Shown here in pieces: positions 26,006-59,818 of a stretch of DNA of 64,000 bases; the first letter of the stretch is position 1, and each line of letters opens with the position of its first letter. The position numbers were made by a program, and so were the translations under genes. The DNA is from Spirochaetota bacterium (GTDB lineage: Bacteria > Spirochaetota > Spirochaetia > Treponematales > UBA12059): assembly GCA_018262985.1 (NCBI GenBank), contig JADFDI010000005.1:159286-223285 (forward strand), given 5' to 3'. The notes beneath the pieces are model-generated. The model was not told where the DNA came from. It did not search any database and saw nothing but the letters and a program-made list of their open reading frames with translations.

Positions 26006-27289
26006 ATGTACAAGTATCGCATCGAAGGCGGCTTCCCTATCAAGGGACGCATCCGCGCCAGCGGCAACAAGAACGCCGCGCTTCCCTGCATCGCCGCGAC
26101 CCTGCTCGCGGACGACGTGGTCACCCTGCGGAACATTCCCGAGATCGAGGACGTGCAGGTCATGCTGGACATCCTCCGCCATCTCGGGTCGACCGTGGAA
26201 TCCATCGGACCGAACGAATGGCGCATCGACCCGCGGACGGCCGCGCGGACCGACGTGGCCGTCGAGCTGTCCCGGAAGATCCGCGCGAGCATCCTTTTCG
26301 CCGGCCCCATGCTCGCGCGTTTCGGCCGACTTACCCTTCCGCCGCCGGGCGGCGACGTCATCGGCCGACGTCGGGTCGATACGCACTTGCTCGCGCTCGA
26401 GGAGCTCGGGGCGCGCATCGAGATCGACGGCGTGTTCGCCTTCACCGCGAACAAGCTGGTCGGCTCCGACATCTTCCTCGACGAGGCTTCCGTTACCGCG
26501 ACCGAGAACGCGGTCATGGCGGCGGTCAGGGCGGAAGGGCGCACGGTCCTCCGCAACGTGGCCAGCGAGCCGCACGTGCAGGACCTCTGCCGCATGCTCG
26601 TCTCGATGGGCGCGCGGATCTCGGGGATCGGTTCCAATATCCTCGAGATCGAGGGAGTGGAGCGGCTCGGCGGCTGCGACTATTCGATCGGTCCCGATTT
26701 CATGGAGATCGGCTCGTTCATCGGGCTGGCGGCGGTGACGCGAGGCGAGATCGAGATCGAAGGCGTCAACCCGGACGACCTGCGGATGATGAAGATAGGC
26801 TTCGGCCGCCTCGGCATCCGCTGGAGCGTCGAGGGCGACGTCCTGACCATGCCCGCCGGGCAGTCCATGCGCGTCGTGCCCGACCTCGGGGGACAGACCC
26901 CGAAGATCGACGACGCGCCGTGGCCGGGCTTCCCGCCTGACCTGACCTCCATCATGACGGTCGTCGCGACCCAGGTGGATGGGATGGTGCTGATCCACGA
27001 GAAGATGTTCGAATCGCGCATGTTCTTCGTGGACAAGCTGATCGGGATGGGAGCGCGCATCGTGCTCTGCGACCCGCATAGGGCGGTCGTTTCGGGGCCG
27101 GCGCGTCTCTCCGGCTCCGAGCTGGTCAGCCCCGACGTCCGCGCGGGCATGGCCATGGTCATTGCCGCCCTCTGCGCCGAAGGCGTCTCCACCATCAAGA
27201 ACGTGTATCAGATCGAACGAGGCTACGAACGGCTGACCGAGCGGCTCAGGTCGCTCGGCGCCCGGATCGAGCGACTCCAGGATTGCTGA
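26006..27289 (+). CDS. murA: UDP-N-acetylglucosamine 1-carboxyvinyltransferase, Asp-type
   Basis: 427 aa. The first committed step of peptidoglycan synthesis, adding enolpyruvate to UDP-GlcNAc. The N-terminal SGNKNAALP contains the essential Lys, and [15 protein letters not shown] precedes the active-site loop. That loop reads [16 protein letters not shown]: the usual catalytic/fosfomycin-target Cys (E. coli 115) is Asp117 here. Cys-to-Asp variants (Mycobacterium, Chlamydia, Borrelia) are known to be fosfomycin-resistant, so resistance is predicted. The C-terminus overlaps the convergent J-domain gene by 44 bp. Confidence 0.95.
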
Positions 27290-27671
27290 GGAGCGTCTCG
27301 TAGGCTTTCCGCGCGGCCATGAAGCGCTCGGGGTCCGGCGTCGGACCGTCCGGGTGGCTCTCCTTGGAGATCGCGCGGAAAGCCCGTTTGATCGCGGAGG
27401 CAGGCGCGTCGACCGGCACCCCGAGCAGGGCCGCCGATTCATCGCGTTCCGGAGCCGTGGCGTCCCGGGCTCCCGTTCCGGAACCTCCGTCCGCGTCCTG
27501 GGCTCGTCGACGCTTTCGGGCTCCGTCCAGCATGGCCCCGAGCGCGAGGCCCACCAAGGCTCCGTACCACGAACCTCCGATCGCGCCGATCGTCAAGCCG
27601 GCCAGCTTGCCGGCCGACGCGACGAGCGCCGGCCGGCTCCGCTCGAGCGCGCTGAGGACGGACTCAATCAC
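27246..27671 (-). CDS. Membrane-associated J-domain protein
   Basis: 141 aa from GTG 27671; the ORF-track start at 27977 lies inside the upstream gene. An N-terminal Gly-rich hydrophobic segment ([22 protein letters not shown]) resembles a DjlA/TerB-like membrane anchor. Then comes a C-terminal J domain ([20 protein letters not shown]) with the HPD motif in [12 protein letters not shown] that stimulates Hsp70 ATPase. The GTG start overlaps the upstream stop (GTGATTGA), so translation is coupled. It is the third gene of a minus-strand operon and partners DnaK at the membrane by inference. Confidence 0.8.
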
Positions 27672-29343
27672 GCGAGAGATATCGGGCCGCAACCGCGATG
27701 CCTGCCAGTATGATCGCCGCGAGCGAAGCACCCCAGGCGAGCCATACGCCAGTTCCGGGAAGGATCGCCCGGAAGGCGGCGAGCAGGCGCTCGCCGGACG
27801 AAGCGAGCGCCGCGATGACCGGCGAGGAGGTCGCGGCGATGAGGGCCAGGCCGGAAAGCGAAACCAAGGCCCCGGGCCGCCGCGGAGACCTGAGCCGGAC
27901 GCCGAGGCCGGCGCCGACGAGCGCCAGCGCGAGCGTTCCCGCGATAGCTCCCGCGCGTAGCGCCAGTTCCGCGGCATACGGCGAGGAATCGAGCCCGAAG
28001 CGCGACGAGGTGCGGGCCGCCTCCAACAGGGATCCTGGCACGAGCGTCGAAGGATGCGCGCCGAGGCTCGCGAAGAGCCTCGCGTCCTTCGGATCCATCG
28101 GCGCCGGCAGCGAGCCAGGGGCTTCCCAGGGAATCGCTCCGCGGTAGGTCACGGGTTCGAGCGTGGAGGGCTCCGAGTCTTTCCCGCCGACGCCGCGCAG
28201 GAGCAGCGCGTCGGACTGGAGAAGCCCGTAAGGCGCGCCGACTTGCCAGAGGACCTCGTCTCCCGCGACCGCGGTCAGTTCGGGAGCGCGGAGCCAGGTG
28301 GACGATCCGGCCGCCGCGCTCGCGGTCGCGCTGAAGATGATCATGGTGCCGGATGATTCGAGCCTGGCCAGGATAGGTCCGGATGGGTGGTCGCCGAGGG
28401 CGGCGCGGGCTTCATCGGCGAAATAGGCGAGGTGGCGCAAGGCTTCCTCGCTTTCCGCCAGGTACCGGGTCACGTCGGGGTCGCGCGGTGACTCCGCGGC
28501 CAGTCGCGAGAATTCCCGCCATGCGCGGAGCGCGTCCCCTTCCCGGAGCGAACCGTAGGCGGCCAGCTTCCGGGAGAAGAAGTCGGCTTTCCCGGCGAGC
28601 TCGGGATCCTCCGACAGGTCGCGGATCCGTTCCCACGCTCGCGACTGGAGCAACCTCGCCTCGGCCATTCTCGGGTCGAGGACGAGAGCCTCGCCGGCCT
28701 CGTAGTGGGCCGTGTACCAATCGCCTCGCGCCTCCGCCTCGAGCGCGATGCGCAGGAAATCCGCGGCGGAAAGCTCGAGCCGTTCAGGCGGCCGGGGCGC
28801 GGCTTCCTCCCTGGAAGGCAGGGCGATAAGCCGATTCGACTCCGCGAGCGCCTTGTCGCGGAGCAGCCTCGAAGCGGACTCCGTCGGATCGATCGATACC
28901 GCGAGCGAGGCAAAGTCCAGCGCGGTGGCGAAATCCTTGTCCTGCAGGGCTTTCTCGGCGCTCTCGCGGGATTTCAGGAACAAAGCGCTACGGGTTTCGT
29001 AGGAGCGCTGTCGCTCGGCGGCGACGGGCGCGAGGAATACGAGGGCGGCTCCCGCGGCCAGGGCCAGCGCGGCGGCCCCGCCGGCGATGGACGCTGCTTT
29101 CCTCCGGTCCCTGCCTTCCCGCGCCACCAGGTTCGCGCCGACCGCGCAGGCGGAGAACACCAGGGCCGGAATCCACGAAAGGAAGCGCGATCCAGTCCTC
29201 GCGAGCTCCCAGGAGAGGGCGAAGCGGCCTATGACCTTCGCGGAGGTCGCGTACTCGACGAGGGAAGCGAGGAAACCCGCGCCCCAGGCGAGGGCGAGCA
29301 GGGCGAACGCGGTCCAGAAGAACGAAACCTTCCGTTCAGGCAT
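27664..29343 (-). CDS. Membrane protein with periplasmic TPR-like and C-terminal helical part
   Basis: 559 aa from ATG 29343 (MPERKVSFFWTAFALLALAW); the longer ORF start is rejected. Three to four hydrophobic helices lie in the first 150 residues. A helical, TPR-like region (DKDFATALDFASLAVSIDPTESA, GDWYTAHYEAGEALVLDPRMAEA) follows to about 330, then a beta-rich stretch and three C-terminal membrane helices. The family is unknown to me. Its start overlaps the upstream stop by 8 bp and its stop overlaps the J-protein start, so three genes form one tight operon. Confidence 0.7.
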   Translation of the reverse strand: MPERKVSFFWTAFALLALAWGAGFLASLVEYATSAKVIGRFALSWELARTGSRFLSWIPALVFSACAVGANLVAREGRDRRKAASIAGGAAALALAAGAALVFLAPVAAERQRSYETRSALFLKSRESAEKALQDKDFATALDFASLAVSIDPTESASRLLRDKALAESNRLIALPSREEAAPRPPERLELSAADFLRIALEAEARGDWYTAHYEAGEALVLDPRMAEARLLQSRAWERIRDLSEDPELAGKADFFSRKLAAYGSLREGDALRAWREFSRLAAESPRDPDVTRYLAESEEALRHLAYFADEARAALGDHPSGPILARLESSGTMIIFSATASAAAGSSTWLRAPELTAVAGDEVLWQVGAPYGLLQSDALLLRGVGGKDSEPSTLEPVTYRGAIPWEAPGSLPAPMDPKDARLFASLGAHPSTLVPGSLLEAARTSSRFGLDSSPYAAELALRAGAIAGTLALALVGAGLGVRLRSPRRPGALVSLSGLALIAATSSPVIAALASSGERLLAAFRAILPGTGVWLAWGASLAAIILAGIAVAARYLSRD

Positions 29344-30253
29344 CGGCGCGCCCCCGGATCTCGTCGGCCGGCCTGAAAAGTAGATCCGCGCCGAGCAAGA
29401 GAAGACCGATCGCGGTGGCGAGGATGGCCGCGCGAATCTCGGGCTCGAGCGAAATGCCCACCAGCTCAAGCGCCCCGGTGATGGATGCGGAGCCGAGGAC
29501 CCCGTACAGCCCGGGGACGGTCCAGGCGAAGAGGAGGCCTAGCATCGCCCCGGGCATGGGCCACGAGAACATCCGCGCGGGGAAACGGACGCCGGACGCG
29601 AGCGCGGCGAAGGAAAGCGCCATGAGGAGCAGCGGGATGGATTTCCCCGCATCGGAAATCCAGTCCGAAGGCTTGCCTCCGGCGCGAACCAAGGGCGCGG
29701 CGCGCGTCGACGCCGGTCCGAGGGCGTCGAGGGCGAGTCGATAGGATACTCCGCCCGCCCGGACCAAGCCCTCCGACGGAGACCAGGCGGCTTCGGGGTA
29801 CCAGGCCATCCGCGGGACGGCGGCCGGGTCGACGACGAGCACTCCGCGCGCCATGGGTGCATCCCACTCCTCCGCGGAGAGCGTCAGCTCTCCGGACGCG
29901 AGGAAGCGACGGGGAAGGGGGATCGGAGGAGCGCCGGTCGCCGCCGGCGCGGCTACCAGCGGGGCGAGGGACAAGCCGAGGGACATGAACAGGAAGGAGA
30001 TCGAGAATACGAGCGCGTGGCTCGCCAGCCGGGATTTTATGCGACGGGCGGAAACGATGGCGAGGTACCAGGCGCTGAGCGAGACGGCCCAGGGAAGGGA
30101 GTCGGTCATGCCGGCCGCGAGGGCGCCTGGATTGAAGGCGTTCGCCAATCCGCTCGCCGGGATCGCCGTAACGGCTCCGAGCAGGGCACCGGCGATCAGT
30201 ACGACCCCCATGGCCAAAGGCGCGCGAAGCAGTACGGCCAGCGTCCTTCTCAT
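29336..30253 (-). CDS. Polytopic membrane protein of unknown function
   Basis: About 305 aa from ATG 30253 (MRRTLAVLLRAPLAMGVVLI). Other candidate starts are ATG 30277 and GTG 30328, the latter lying inside a DnaA box and rejected. Three or four N-terminal helices and three C-terminal helices enclose a soluble part of about 110 residues (SGELTLSAEEWDAP, VLVVDPAAVPRMAWYPEAAW). This helices-soluble-helices layout is reminiscent of LptF/LptG permeases, but the helix count and signatures do not confirm that. First gene of the operon with the TPR protein and the J-domain protein. Confidence 0.65.
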   Translation of the reverse strand: MRRTLAVLLRAPLAMGVVLIAGALLGAVTAIPASGLANAFNPGALAAGMTDSLPWAVSLSAWYLAIVSARRIKSRLASHALVFSISFLFMSLGLSLAPLVAAPAATGAPPIPLPRRFLASGELTLSAEEWDAPMARGVLVVDPAAVPRMAWYPEAAWSPSEGLVRAGGVSYRLALDALGPASTRAAPLVRAGGKPSDWISDAGKSIPLLLMALSFAALASGVRFPARMFSWPMPGAMLGLLFAWTVPGLYGVLGSASITGALELVGISLEPEIRAAILATAIGLLLLGADLLFRPADEIRGRADA

Positions 30254-30289
30254 TGCGTCGACTCTAGCACGGTGCATATCGCTTGGCAA

Positions 30290-30600
30290 GAAAGGCTCTA
30301 CGGACAAGGATTTCCACAAGTTATCCACAGCTTTTTAGGCAGCGTTTCTCTACATATCCGTTTCCCGAATCCGCGATAGCTTGCTTTTTATGGAGTAGTC
30401 GTTGTCGATAAAAGAATACACAGCTTGATAATTACATGTATTGAATAGAAATATCGCCGAAACTCCAGTAACTTTTACAAAATATCTCCAAATATTCCAA
30501 GCCTGTCTTGCATCGGAAAATACAGGGTGCGCCGCACAGGAATTATACCCACATGTTCATGCACAAGTTATCCACAGGTTTTTCATATCGACCTGAGGGC
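30290..30600. other. AT-rich DnaA-box region, candidate replication origin or DnaA-regulated site
   Basis: A gene-free island of markedly lower GC than everything around it. Two perfect DnaA boxes TTATCCACA lie at 30321-30329 and 30568-30576 in the same orientation, each inside the shared context CAAGTTATCCACAG. Near-boxes are TTTCCACA just left of the first, TGTCGATAA at 30403-30411 (inverted) and TTATACCCA at 30543-30551. The central 200 bp is rich in A/T runs. dnaA, dnaN and gyrB are not adjacent; mnmE-mnmG lies 26 kb away. Confidence 0.5.
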
Positions 30601-30602
30601 CG

Positions 30603-30628
30603 AAAAAAACCGCCCCCGTAGGGGCGGT
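30603..30628 (-). terminator. Rho-independent terminator of the pspA operon
   Basis: On the minus strand ACCGCCCC-TACG-GGGGCGGT is followed by seven T residues (plus strand A-run 30603-30609). The 8-bp stem, tetraloop and T-run are textbook. It sits 20 bp beyond the pspA stop and insulates the AT-rich DnaA-box island. Confidence 0.9.
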
Positions 30629-30647
30629 CGTAGGCTGGCCCTTGCTG

Positions 30648-31364
30648 TCACGTAGCTCCGCCGGCTCCCTGGGCGCCCTGTTTGCCGTCCCCGAGCATCT
30701 TGCGCTTGAGATCCTCGAGCATGATGTCTGCGCTCGCCCCGGAGCTCTCGAGCTGCGCGAACTGCTTCTCGAGGCTCGTATCCTTGGACAGATCCTCGAG
30801 TTCGCGGGCCGCGTCGGCGCGGGCTTCGATCTCGTCCACTTTCTTGGCCATGCGGTCGAAAGTCTCGAAGGCGCTCTTGTTGCCCGCGAGCGTTCCGAGC
30901 GTCTTCTGTATCTTTTCCTGGGCCTCGGCCCGTTTGGCCCGGGCGATCAGGATGTTCTTCTTCCTCGAAGCCTCGTCGATCTTGTTCTGCAGCTGCCGGA
31001 GCGCGTCCTTGAGCTTGTCGACCGATGCCTTCTGGCCTTCCCACTGGGGCCTGAGCTGGCCGACGTACCCGGCGAACTCCTGCTGGCGGAGCAGGGCTTC
31101 CTTGGCGAGGTCGTCGCGGCCTGCGCGGACCGCGATCATCGCCTTCTTCTCCCACTCCTGCGCCTGGCGCTCCTGTTCCAGCAGCTCGCGCTCGATCTTC
31201 TTCTCGTCGGCGATGGCCATGGCCACCGCCTTCTTGCTCTCGATCATCTGCTGGTTCATGTCGATCAGGAGCTGGTTCAGCATCTTCTCGGGGTTCTCGG
31301 CCTTGGAGATCAGGTCGTTGATGTTCGAGGAGACGACGGTCTTGAACCGGTCGAAGATTCCCAT
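30648..31364 (-). CDS. pspA: PspA/IM30 family envelope-stress protein
   Basis: 238 aa, nearly all coiled coil. The N-terminal amphipathic helix MGIFDRFKTVVSSNINDLIS and the PEKMLNQLLIDMNQQM segment are classic PspA/Vipp1. The protein oligomerises on the inner face of the membrane and stabilises it under stress (ESCRT-III superfamily). GGAGG precedes the start. It is the last gene of an operon with a YbjN/CesT-like gene and a STAS protein rather than with pspBC/pspF, so regulation is probably different from enterobacteria. Confidence 0.92.
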   Translation of the reverse strand: MGIFDRFKTVVSSNINDLISKAENPEKMLNQLLIDMNQQMIESKKAVAMAIADEKKIERELLEQERQAQEWEKKAMIAVRAGRDDLAKEALLRQQEFAGYVGQLRPQWEGQKASVDKLKDALRQLQNKIDEASRKKNILIARAKRAEAQEKIQKTLGTLAGNKSAFETFDRMAKKVDEIEARADAARELEDLSKDTSLEKQFAQLESSGASADIMLEDLKRKMLGDGKQGAQGAGGAT

Positions 31365-31813: not shown

Positions 31814-32365
31814 TCAGCCGAGGAAGACCTGACCGGAATTGTCGATGGCGAGGATGGTCTTGCACTCCGAGCAGCGGAAGCGACCGGGGCGGGCCGCGCG
31901 GAGCTTCTTGTTGCAGATGGGGCAGGCGAAGACCTTGGGGAAGACCGACTGGGCGGCGCCCCGCTCGCCCTGCTGGAAGAAGCCGATGGCTTCCTCGAGG
32001 TTGTCCTTGATATTGAAGAACTGCGAGAAACCGAGCAGCTGGAAGACCTCGTAGACCTTGGGCTGGATTTCGAGCAGCACGATGTCTCCGCCTCGGGGAC
32101 GGACCGCCTTGAGGAAGGCCGTGAACGAACCGATGCCGGTCGACGAGACGTAGTTGAGGCCGCCGCAGTTGAAGATCAGGCGCACGTTGCCGGCCTCGAT
32201 GGCCTTGCCGACGCGCTTCTGGAAGAAGTTGGAGTTGTAGGTATCTATATAACCCGTCAGGTAGAGCGCCAGGCAGTTGTCGGCCTGGTCGATCTTCTGG
32301 AGGCGGATCTTGAGACTATCGTCCTTCTCGTCGTCAAAGCCCGGAACGATGTCGTTATTATTCAT
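31814..32365 (-). CDS. STAS-domain (anti-sigma antagonist-like) protein with C-terminal zinc ribbon
   Basis: 183 aa. A STAS domain spans about 15-125: LALYLTGYIDTYNSNFFQKR, the phosphoacceptor loop NYVSSTGIGSFTAF with Ser/Thr at the usual position, and GDIVLLEIQPKVYEVFQLLG. Residues about 147-172 form a CxxC...CxxC zinc ribbon (CPICNKKL, FRCSECKTIL). STAS antagonists are switched by an anti-sigma kinase and a PP2C phosphatase, but neither gene is in this window. It has its own promoter at 32408-32436 and GGAG before ATG, and heads the operon with YbjN-like and pspA. Confidence 0.8.
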   Translation of the reverse strand: MNNNDIVPGFDDEKDDSLKIRLQKIDQADNCLALYLTGYIDTYNSNFFQKRVGKAIEAGNVRLIFNCGGLNYVSSTGIGSFTAFLKAVRPRGGDIVLLEIQPKVYEVFQLLGFSQFFNIKDNLEEAIGFFQQGERGAAQSVFPKVFACPICNKKLRAARPGRFRCSECKTILAIDNSGQVFLG

Positions 32366-56554: not shown

Positions 56555-57907
56555 GTGCAGCAACGATATATCGACGTCGAGGAGCTCATCGTCGCCCAGG
56601 CGACGCCGCCCGGCGCGTCCGCGCTCGCCATCGTCCGCTTGGCGGGGCCCGGGTGCGTAGATGCGGTCGCGGCCGGTTTCCAGCGCCCGGAAAGACTGCG
56701 CGAGGCCAGGGGACGCAGCCTGGTCCGGGGTACCTTCATCGACCCGCGCGACGGCAAGCCCGTTGACGACCTCGTCGCGGCGGTCTTCCGCGCGCCCGAA
56801 AGCCCGACGGGCCAGGACCAGGTTGACTTCATGACCCACGGTTCGCCGGCGGTGGTGGCGGCCCTGGTCGACGCGCTGGTCGCCCTCGGTTGTCGGAGGG
56901 CCTTGCCGGGAGAGTTCTCCTTCAGGGCTTTCGTGGCGGGCAAGGCGGACCTGGTGGAGTCCGAGGCGATCGACGAGCTTTCCCGAGCGCGCACCGCGGA
57001 GGCCCGCGCCGCTGCCCTCCGCAGGCTGGGCGGCGGGGTATCGGCGGAGATCTGGCGCATGCGCTCGGAGCTTCTCGAGATTCTCGCGGCCTGCGAGGTT
57101 CTCCTGGACTATCCGGAGGACGAGGTCGAGGGGGGGCTCGACGGGCGGCTGCCGGCCATGCGCGCGGCGCTCGACGCCCTCTCGGCGTTGTCGGCCGCCC
57201 ACGCGGGCGCCCGGCTGCGATTGGAGGGCGCCAGGGTCGCCGTCGCCGGGCGGACGAACGCCGGCAAGTCGAGCCTTTTCAACCGCTTCCTGCGCGAGGA
57301 GCGCTCCATCGTTTCCGGCGAGCACGGAACCACGCGCGACTGGATCGAGGCGTCGGTGGACCTCGAAGGCATACCGCTCGTGCTCCAGGATACCGCGGGC
57401 CTTCGCTCGACGACCGACGCGATCGAGGCCGAGGGCGTCCGACGTTCCCGCCTCCTGCTCGACGCGGCCGACCTGGTGCTCTACGTCGTGGACGGCACGG
57501 CGGGACTCGCGGACGATGACCGGGACTTCCTGGAAGCCCGGCCGGACGCGCTCCGTGTCTGGAACAAGACCGATTCAGCCGAGTGCGGACCCGTTCCCGC
57601 TGGCTTCCATCCGGTGTCGGCGCTCGACGGGATTGGCTTCCAGGACCTCGCCCTCGCCATCGTCGCGAAGTTGCCCGGCGGAGCCGGAAGCGCCGACGGC
57701 TTGGCCGGGGAACGGCAGGCGGCGCTCGTGGAGGCCGCGAGGGCTTCGCTTTCCGACGCCATCGCCTCGATCGAGGCGGGCGAGCCGCTCGACCTGGTGT
57801 CCCTCGACCTCAAGGCGGCCTCCGACAGCCTCGGGGAACTGACCGGCGAAACCGCCTCGCCCGACGTGCTCGACACCATCTTCTCCCGCTTCTGCGTCGG
57901 AAAGTAG
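56555..57907 (+). CDS. mnmE: tRNA modification GTPase MnmE
   Basis: 450 aa from GTG 56555. With MnmG it installs carboxymethylaminomethyl at U34 of tRNAs reading split codon boxes. The N-terminal folate-binding domain (LIVAQATPPGASALAIVRLA, LPGEFSFRAFVAGKADLVES) is followed by the G domain: G1 AVAGRTNAGKSSLFN, G2 GTTRDWIEA, G3 LQDTAGLR, G4 VWNKTDS. The C-terminus FCVGK is a variant of the FCIGK motif with the catalytic Cys conserved. mnmG follows after six bases. Confidence 0.96.
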   Translation: MQQRYIDVEELIVAQATPPGASALAIVRLAGPGCVDAVAAGFQRPERLREARGRSLVRGTFIDPRDGKPVDDLVAAVFRAPESPTGQDQVDFMTHGSPAVVAALVDALVALGCRRALPGEFSFRAFVAGKADLVESEAIDELSRARTAEARAAALRRLGGGVSAEIWRMRSELLEILAACEVLLDYPEDEVEGGLDGRLPAMRAALDALSALSAAHAGARLRLEGARVAVAGRTNAGKSSLFNRFLREERSIVSGEHGTTRDWIEASVDLEGIPLVLQDTAGLRSTTDAIEAEGVRRSRLLLDAADLVLYVVDGTAGLADDDRDFLEARPDALRVWNKTDSAECGPVPAGFHPVSALDGIGFQDLALAIVAKLPGGAGSADGLAGERQAALVEAARASLSDAIASIEAGEPLDLVSLDLKAASDSLGELTGETASPDVLDTIFSRFCVGK

Positions 57908-57913
57908 GCGGCC

Positions 57914-59818
57914 ATGGATTACGAAGCGATCGTGGTCGGCGGGGGGCACGCCGGCATCGAGGCCGCCCGGGCCTTGGCGCGCCTAGGTCACCGAACCCTC
58001 CTCGTCACGCAGAATCCGGACGCCATCGGCCGAATGTCCTGCAATCCCGCGATCGGCGGACTCTCCAAGGGGAACCTGGTCCGCGAGGTCGACGCGCTCG
58101 GCGGCGCCATGGGGTTCCTCGCCGACGCCGCCAGCCTTCAGTGGCGGCTACTCAACCGGTCGCGCGGGGCGGCGGTGCAGGGTCCTCGCGCCCAATGCGA
58201 CAAGGACCTGTACTCGCGCCTCGCGCGCGCGGCGCTCGAGTCCGAGGCGACGCTCGCCATCCGCGCGGACACGGTCGTGGATCTTCTCGTCTCGAAGGAC
58301 GGGCGACGGATCGAAGGCGTCGTCTGCGAGCGCGGGGCTTCCATCTCGGCGCGAGTCGTCGTGCTGACGACCGGAACCTTCATGGAAGGCCGGCTCTTCA
58401 TCGGGGAATGGACGGCTCCCGGGGGCAGGCTGGGGGAACCGGCCGCGCAGGGACTCGGTATCGCGCTCAGGTCCCGCGGTTTCTCCGTCGGTCGCATGAA
58501 GACCGGAACTCCCGCCCGCGTGCGAGCGCGCTCCCTCGACTACGACCGACTCGAACGGCAGGACGCCGATCCCGATCCGCGTCCCTTCAGCTTCGCGGTC
58601 GACCCGCCTCCGCGACCTTCGCGCCCCTGCTGGATAACCTGGACGAACCGGGCCACCGCGGAGGCCATTCAGGCCGGATTGCACCGTTCGCCGCTCTACG
58701 GCGGCAAGATCGAGGGAGTCGGCCCCCGCTATTGTCCTTCCATCGAAGACAAGGTCGTCCGCTTCCCCGGGCGGGAGCGTCACCAGGTCTTCGTCGAACC
58801 CGAGGGCGACCACACCGACGAGATGTACTTGAACGGCCTTTCGTCCTCGCTGCCGGAGGACGTGCAGGCGGCCTTCATCCGCACGGTGCCCGGACTGGAA
58901 CGGGCGGAGCTCGTCCGTCCCGGCTACGCCGTCGAGTACGACTACGTCGACCCGTCCGGCCTGCTCCCCACGCTCGAGACCAAGCGCCTGTCGGGCCTCT
59001 ATCTGGCCGGACAGACCAACGGCACGAGCGGCTACGAGGAGGCGGCGGCGCAGGGGATACTCGCGGGTATCAATGCTTCCCTCGCCCTGCGCGGAGAGCC
59101 TCCCCTCGTGCTTTCGCGCGCCGAGAGCTATATCGGCGTCCTCGTCGACGACCTCGCGACCCTCGGCGCCACGGAGCCCTACCGTATGTTCACGAGCCGC
59201 GCCGAGCGGCGTCTGTCCCTCCGGCACGACACGGCCGACGCGCGGCTCACCCCTCTCGCCATGCGGATCGGGCTCGCCGACCGGGAGCGCGTCGAGCGCT
59301 TCGAACGGAAACGTGAAGGCTTGGCGGCCGTTCGACGGATTCTCGAGGACCGGACCGTGAGCCGGGAGGACGCGGCCGAGCGCGCGGAACTCTCGTCGCA
59401 CGTCGGGGAGACTTTCGCGCGGGCCTTGCGCGACCACAAGGTGGCCGATCTGGGCCTCGAGGCGCTCCTTCCGGAAATGTCCGCGCTGCCGCGGGAGTGG
59501 ACCGACGCGGTCGCGCTGGACTTCCGCTATGAAGGGTACGTCGCGAAGGAAGCCAGGCAAGCGGCCAAGTTCGGGTGCCTCGAGTCGCGCCCGATACCGG
59601 CTGAGTTCGACTACCTCTCGATGACGGCGCTCTCGAGCGAAGGGCGGGAGAAGCTTTCGCGCGTGCGGCCGCTCACCCTCGGCCAGGCCGCCCGGATACC
59701 CGGCGTGCGCCAGGCCGACGTGGCCCTCCTGCTCGTCGCCGTCGATCGGGGAGCCCGATCCGTCCGCGACCGACGCGGAACCGCACCGGACGACTCGGGC
59801 GGCGCCGAGACCGGCTGA
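57914..59818 (+). CDS. mnmG: tRNA uridine-34 carboxymethylaminomethyl synthesis FAD enzyme MnmG (GidA)
   Basis: 634 aa, the usual length. FAD-binding motif [20 protein letters not shown], then the GidA signatures [64 protein letters not shown] and [20 protein letters not shown]. It acts as a heterotetramer with MnmE. In many bacteria this pair sits near oriC; here the DnaA-box island is 26 kb away. It converges with the next minus-strand gene, 10 bp apart. Confidence 0.96.

Follow-up and report, generated by a model that had tools for sequence, protein, structure and literature searches.

A non-coding module, in which two tandem DnaA sites of the same orientation flank a central AT-rich dyad, is retained at one orthologous position throughout the class Spirochaetia, ~10–400 kb from dnaA. 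We lean, with modest confidence, toward the view that this element is a conserved extra-origin DnaA control site, akin to datA or to DnaA-box clusters, that captures DnaA after early duplication. The copy described here lies in a stretch of 64,000 nt ("the window"; G000:C18:159286-223285) of a 3.44 Mb genome in 22 contigs.

DnaA boxes in the mem1–pspA spacer

A scan of the window identified two perfect DnaA boxes (TTATCCACA) 247 bp apart on the plus strand, each within a 22-bp repeat, CACAAGTTATCCACAG[C/G]TTTTT, whose two copies are 95% identical. An imperfect box is situated 11 bp upstream of each perfect box, making each site a tandem DnaA site. GC content between the boxes is 40%, compared to 68% for the whole window, and only 4 of 3188 sliding windows of 240 bp are equally AT-rich, every one of them at the element. 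The spacer between mem1 and pspA spans ~350 bp, and no gene fits in it. A first-pass annotation had described this region as two same-strand perfect boxes bracketing AT-rich, gene-free DNA with imperfect boxes nearby, and our analysis agrees on each point. The features are as follows.

26006–27289, plus strand: murA (TIGR01072, 9.7e-155), a marker adjoining the module even where pspA, mem1 and mem2 are absent there
27664–29415, minus strand: mem2, membrane protein; relatives weakly match LptF/LptG permeases and TPR models
29336–30253, minus strand: mem1, membrane protein of no assigned family; left neighbor conserved in many, not all, lineages
30261–30289, minus strand: candidate mem1 promoter TTGCCA-17-TAGAGT, which matches the consensus and is kept in relatives; lies on the box-1 side, beyond the module
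30310–30329, plus strand: tandem DnaA site 1 (imperfect ATTTCCACA at 30310–30318, perfect TTATCCACA at 30321–30329)
30403–30411, minus strand: single-mismatch box TTATCGACA, from the window scan
30427–30458, plus strand: central AT-rich dyad motif, core 30429–30453 (TAATT...AAATA), from motif discovery and matrix scan
30557–30576, plus strand: tandem DnaA site 2 (imperfect TCATGCACA at 30557–30565, perfect TTATCCACA at 30568–30576)
30608–30629, minus strand: intrinsic terminator serving STAS-ybjN-pspA, immediately beyond box 2
30648–31364, minus strand: pspA (PspA/IM30 family; profile match 9.7e-53), syntenic marker
31814–32365, minus strand: STAS-domain protein, syntenic marker used to locate the locus in named genomes

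The position of the single-mismatch box is not conserved among aligned relatives, and this box is probably incidental. Sequence TTGCCA-17-TAGAGT is likely the mem1 promoter, and mem1 and mem2 form a membrane-protein pair next to pspA (27664–30253).

Perfect boxes number just four in the 3.44 Mb genome: two at the element and one on each side of dnaA (C18:72697 and C18:74188). The extended form, ACANNTTNTNCACA, occurs at five sites genome-wide, four of which belong to the element and dnaA modules, and a whole-genome search with the extended pattern returned exactly two such modules. As the first-pass annotation had stated, the window contains no dnaA, dnaN or gyrB (all three are located 116 kb away on the same contig), and mnmE (56555–57907) and mnmG (57914–59818) are where it had placed them.

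Conservation of the module and its counterpart upstream of dnaA

The gene order at the orthologous locus is STAS-(ybjN)-pspA-(X)-[module]-mem1-mem2-murA, with mem1-mem2 as the left neighbor at most STAS-linked loci. A box pair of the expected orientation was found at 46 of 75 named STAS-pspA loci, compared to one pair of the opposite orientation and none for control words. At the stringency used, 29 of the 75 STAS-linked loci lack a pair, and hence the element is either dispensable or diverged in some lineages. STAS-linked modules are also present in other orders (L315, L317, L318, L321, L327, L328, L331, L332), and genome G333, likewise of another order, carries one. In families f7 (L319, L320) and f12 (L333, L334), the murA side alone remains of the locus. 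Where both lie on one contig, the element and dnaA are separated by 52 kb (G329), 96 kb (G314), 114 kb (G333), 116 kb (the source genome, G000), 118 kb (G001), 210 kb (G034) or 260 kb (G031); the distance is 403 kb in Breznakiella homolactica (G240/G304) and ~10–17 kb in f7 and f12.

Alignment of relatives shows paired extended boxes, T.(C/A)ACA(A/G)(G/C)TTATCCACA(A/G), in the same orientation and 197–248 bp apart, and the motif T.(C/A)ACA(A/G)(G/C)TTATCCACA is conserved in 57 distinct elements. Among 294 genomes of the order, 78 carry exact pairs 202–231 bp apart (control, 1), and among 391 of the class, 117 carry pairs 205–235 bp apart (control, 0); the spacing limits were chosen after the first pairs had been seen, and the genomes are mostly draft MAGs. 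The first-pass annotation had made its proposal depend on conservation of the boxes in related genomes, and conserved they are. These data also bear on whether the element could simply be AT-rich intergenic DNA with coincidental DnaA-like words. By our estimate, 3.4 Mb of this base composition should contain ~5 perfect boxes, and a total of four is nothing out of the ordinary; it is the clustering, orientation, spacing and class-wide positional conservation of the boxes, with controls near zero, that make such a coincidence extremely improbable.

Between the boxes lies a 25-bp dyad with the consensus TAATT..TT.T..TATAA..AATTA. It was found among the remote elements without a prior model (motif score 637, versus 389–394 for shuffled sequences), and a matrix built from other families only, leaving out that of the window, still recovered it in the window (P = 0.002). 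The dyad starts mostly 85, 93–97, 104–107 or 117 bp from box 1 and mostly 105–106, 116–119, 127–129 or 138–142 bp before box 2, such that box-to-dyad distances change in steps of ~11 bp. For box-to-box spacing, the best period is ~11.5–12 bp, not 10.5 bp, and the periodicity P values are overstated owing to kinship of the sequences. The layout of the module is thus an 11-bp tandem DnaA site, ~105 bp, the 25-bp dyad, ~106–142 bp, and a second tandem site. The dyad is a probable target of a DNA-bending or architectural protein.

The same box pair is seen upstream of dnaA in most relatives. Box 1 is usually separated from the start codon by 23–46 bp, and box 2, often tandem, follows ~202–248 bp beyond box 1. 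When dnaA regions were scanned with the remote-element matrix, the best match fell 104–106 bp from box 1 in 12 of 17, most of these matches having P = 0.003, the smallest attainable value. A de novo motif search of the 17 dnaA regions alone yielded nothing clearly above shuffles, and the dyad in these regions is visible only by scanning with the remote-element matrix. Because that scan places a dyad at the matching distance from box 1 upstream of dnaA, we regard the remote element and the dnaA-upstream region as architectural twins at the level of sequence. Boxes just upstream of dnaA are absent from G024 and G035 (which, along with G058, we take to be Treponema genomes) and from the f7 and f12 genomes tested. 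At f12 dnaA loci L348, L350, L352, L353, L355 and L356, there are no boxes just upstream of dnaA and several perfect boxes around the dnaA-dnaN junction, which suggests a different origin layout in this family.

Strand composition and the location of the origin

The first-pass annotation had raised the possibility that the element is an oriC separated from dnaA, and had proposed a search for the GC-skew minimum there as a check. On the contig in question, cumulative GC skew instead reaches its minimum near dnaA (73–80 kb) and is rising through the element at 189.6 kb. Gene-strand-corrected third-position skew (plus- minus minus-strand genes) is –0.047 immediately left of dnaA and then +0.054, +0.052, +0.063 and +0.062 from dnaA through and past the element; the value for the leftmost 36 kb of the contig, +0.029, comes from only six plus-strand genes. 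The closed relative G031 behaves alike, with skew of –0.03 to –0.11 left of dnaA, mostly positive values to the right, and no change in GC skew at its own element, 260 kb. Nor does skew change at the STAS-linked pair of closed genome G058, at 474 kb. Skew is an evolutionary average, not a reading of present-day initiation, and by this measure the element is not the origin in G000 or in closed relatives G031 and G058. The main oriC is ruled out as the identity of the element on these grounds: the skew flips at dnaA only (G000, G031), with no flip at the G058 pair. What survives of the original proposal is the origin-like architecture, the boxes being ordered as in the host's dnaA-linked region with the same geometry; what does not is the assignment as oriC of this genome, given the skew and a gyrB-dnaA-dnaN locus of ordinary type, in which boxes flank dnaA left and right.

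Could the module nonetheless be a dormant, back-up or formerly main origin, able to fire now or in an ancestor, with the dnaA copy being the usual one today? The match to the dnaA-upstream region would fit, as would those lineages that keep the remote module and show no box pair just upstream of dnaA, and the G024 skew minimum near a box pair 275 kb from dnaA. However, that G024 pair sits at another locus and has no central motif, and a co-origin in regular use would have worn down the skew over the interval from dnaA to the element, which is not seen. Skew is unchanged at the element in all three genomes named above, boxes of its own surround dnaA-dnaN in family f12, and the module has an AT-rich center only, with no clear unwinding element identified. 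We therefore consider an origin of this kind unlikely. Unlikely, too, is a broader version, which treats the spirochaete origin and this complete DnaA assembly unit at the murA-pspA locus as class-wide twins of ancestral date. The module would then serve as a dormant or alternative origin, or would pair physically with the dnaA-linked copy and thereby set the timing of initiation, and its presence would have let some lineages dispense with the dnaA-linked copy.

Two closed genomes show skew features away from dnaA. In G024 (C1 ~2.50–2.54 Mb; L081, L121, L241; family f3), which has lost the boxes upstream of dnaA, cumulative skew is minimal at ~2.52–2.54 Mb, ~275 kb from dnaA. A box pair with a spacing of 205 bp is found nearby, at 2.5076 Mb, in the interval flanked by ogt and a DciA-family gene. 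The origin may be separated from dnaA in the group to which G024 belongs. In G058 (C1 ~120–180 kb; L280, L281), GC skew changes sign near 140–160 kb, matching neither dnaA (1 kb) nor the STAS-linked pair (474 kb), a second hint of an origin distant from dnaA in Treponema. More generally, origin predictors that count DnaA boxes and AT-richness can choose the element over the true origin.

Proposed DnaA control outside the origin

With its tandem sites and dyad in roughly helical register, the element could allow bound DnaA to form one folded complex. In the extra-origin control site that we favor, DnaA would fill both tandem sites, and a bending protein at the dyad would draw them together, giving a single nucleoprotein complex with the shape expected at the dnaA-upstream region. 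Lying near the origin, the site would be replicated soon after initiation. Its two fresh copies would take up DnaA, whose ATP hydrolysis they might also promote; free DnaA-ATP would drop, and re-initiation would be restrained. Binding of DnaA and of a bending protein, formation of the complex and a negative effect on initiation are all predictions from sequence. Two strong boxes per element titrate few DnaA molecules, and hence simple titration is a weak explanation without a catalytic or architectural effect.

In E. coli, datA works through DnaA boxes placed on either side of a site for a bending protein, at distances that are critical (PMC4585315; PMC10950094), and is thought to restrain re-initiation by doubling early near the origin (PMC4585315). 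Titration near the origin has recently received experimental support in the same organism (PMC12371093). The element resembles datA in being non-coding and origin-proximal, and its boxes lie at phased distances from a central dyad to which a bending protein is predicted to bind. Unlike datA, which has its own box set and an IHF site, the element comprises two tandem sites ~220–250 bp apart around a palindromic AT-rich dyad and has its architecture in common with the host's own dnaA-upstream region. The phylum also differs, and the likeness is one of layout; homology at the level of sequence is not to be expected. B. subtilis and Streptomyces contain analogous, datA-like DnaA-box clusters, thought to restrain initiation (cited in PMC10950094). 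The element is likewise a conserved set of DnaA boxes outside oriC, but as one structured module at an orthologous locus throughout a class, in contrast to the loose, multiple clusters of those bacteria. The upstream, dnaA-promoter part of bipartite bacterial origins offers another parallel: the element has the same box pair, dyad and spacings as its own dnaA-upstream region, yet it lies far from dnaA, without a dnaA gene and without a skew inflection.

A module of this kind bears on how initiation is confined to one event per cycle in bacteria that do not have the DnaA regulators of E. coli. Its presence at one locus class-wide offers a single defined 350-bp target for experiments. To our knowledge, little is known about initiation control in spirochaetes (Treponema and relatives) beyond Borrelia, and we found no description of such an element in spirochaetes in the literature on Treponema or Sphaerochaeta origin elements. 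The experimentally studied spirochaete is Borrelia burgdorferi, for which the available part of PMC9879097 covers DnaA binding at dnaA-dnaN and other loci; it places oriC within dnaA-dnaN, with two hypothesized boxes, and describes no comparable extra-origin module.

The sign of the effect could also be the reverse. A DARS-like site, whose complex promotes ADP-to-ATP exchange on DnaA and so stimulates initiation, strikes us as improbable. The core boxes of E. coli DARS are closely packed, unlike the two tandem sites of the element, and the origin-proximal position better suits an early-duplicated negative site. That said, sequence is compatible with either sign, and DARS are likewise non-coding DnaA-box clusters with bending-protein sites (PMC4585315).

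Finally, the first-pass annotation had suggested a DnaA-controlled switch as the alternative to an origin. Immediately ahead of the candidate mem1 promoter sits box 1, from which DnaA might control transcription of a mem1-mem2 operon. The promoter-like sequence adjoining box 1 is conserved, in keeping with this idea, and mem1-mem2 is the usual neighbor at STAS-linked loci. But in f7 (L319, L320), murA converges on X, with the module between both 3' ends, and in f12 (L333), murA converges on an AAA-type gene in the same arrangement; mem1 is not there in either case. Retention of the module between convergent genes, where no promoter is needed, argues that operator function is not its general role, and as a general function the mem1 operator is ruled out by this persistence. 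Promoter position is not shared either, the promoter being outside the module here and box 1 being close to the start codon at dnaA. Such an operator is therefore quite unlikely: the DnaA architecture of the proposed switch holds, and control of neighboring genes is weakened.

Protein X is OmpR-like and of the winged-helix type, and its receiver part is degenerate. It adjoins box 2 in many lineages and could bind near the module. The X of f7 matches that of L185 (E = 6e-14). Its genes are located as follows.

L168:7726–8370: protein X
L185:7704–8318: protein X
L319:4147–4809: protein X
L320:5242–5889: protein X
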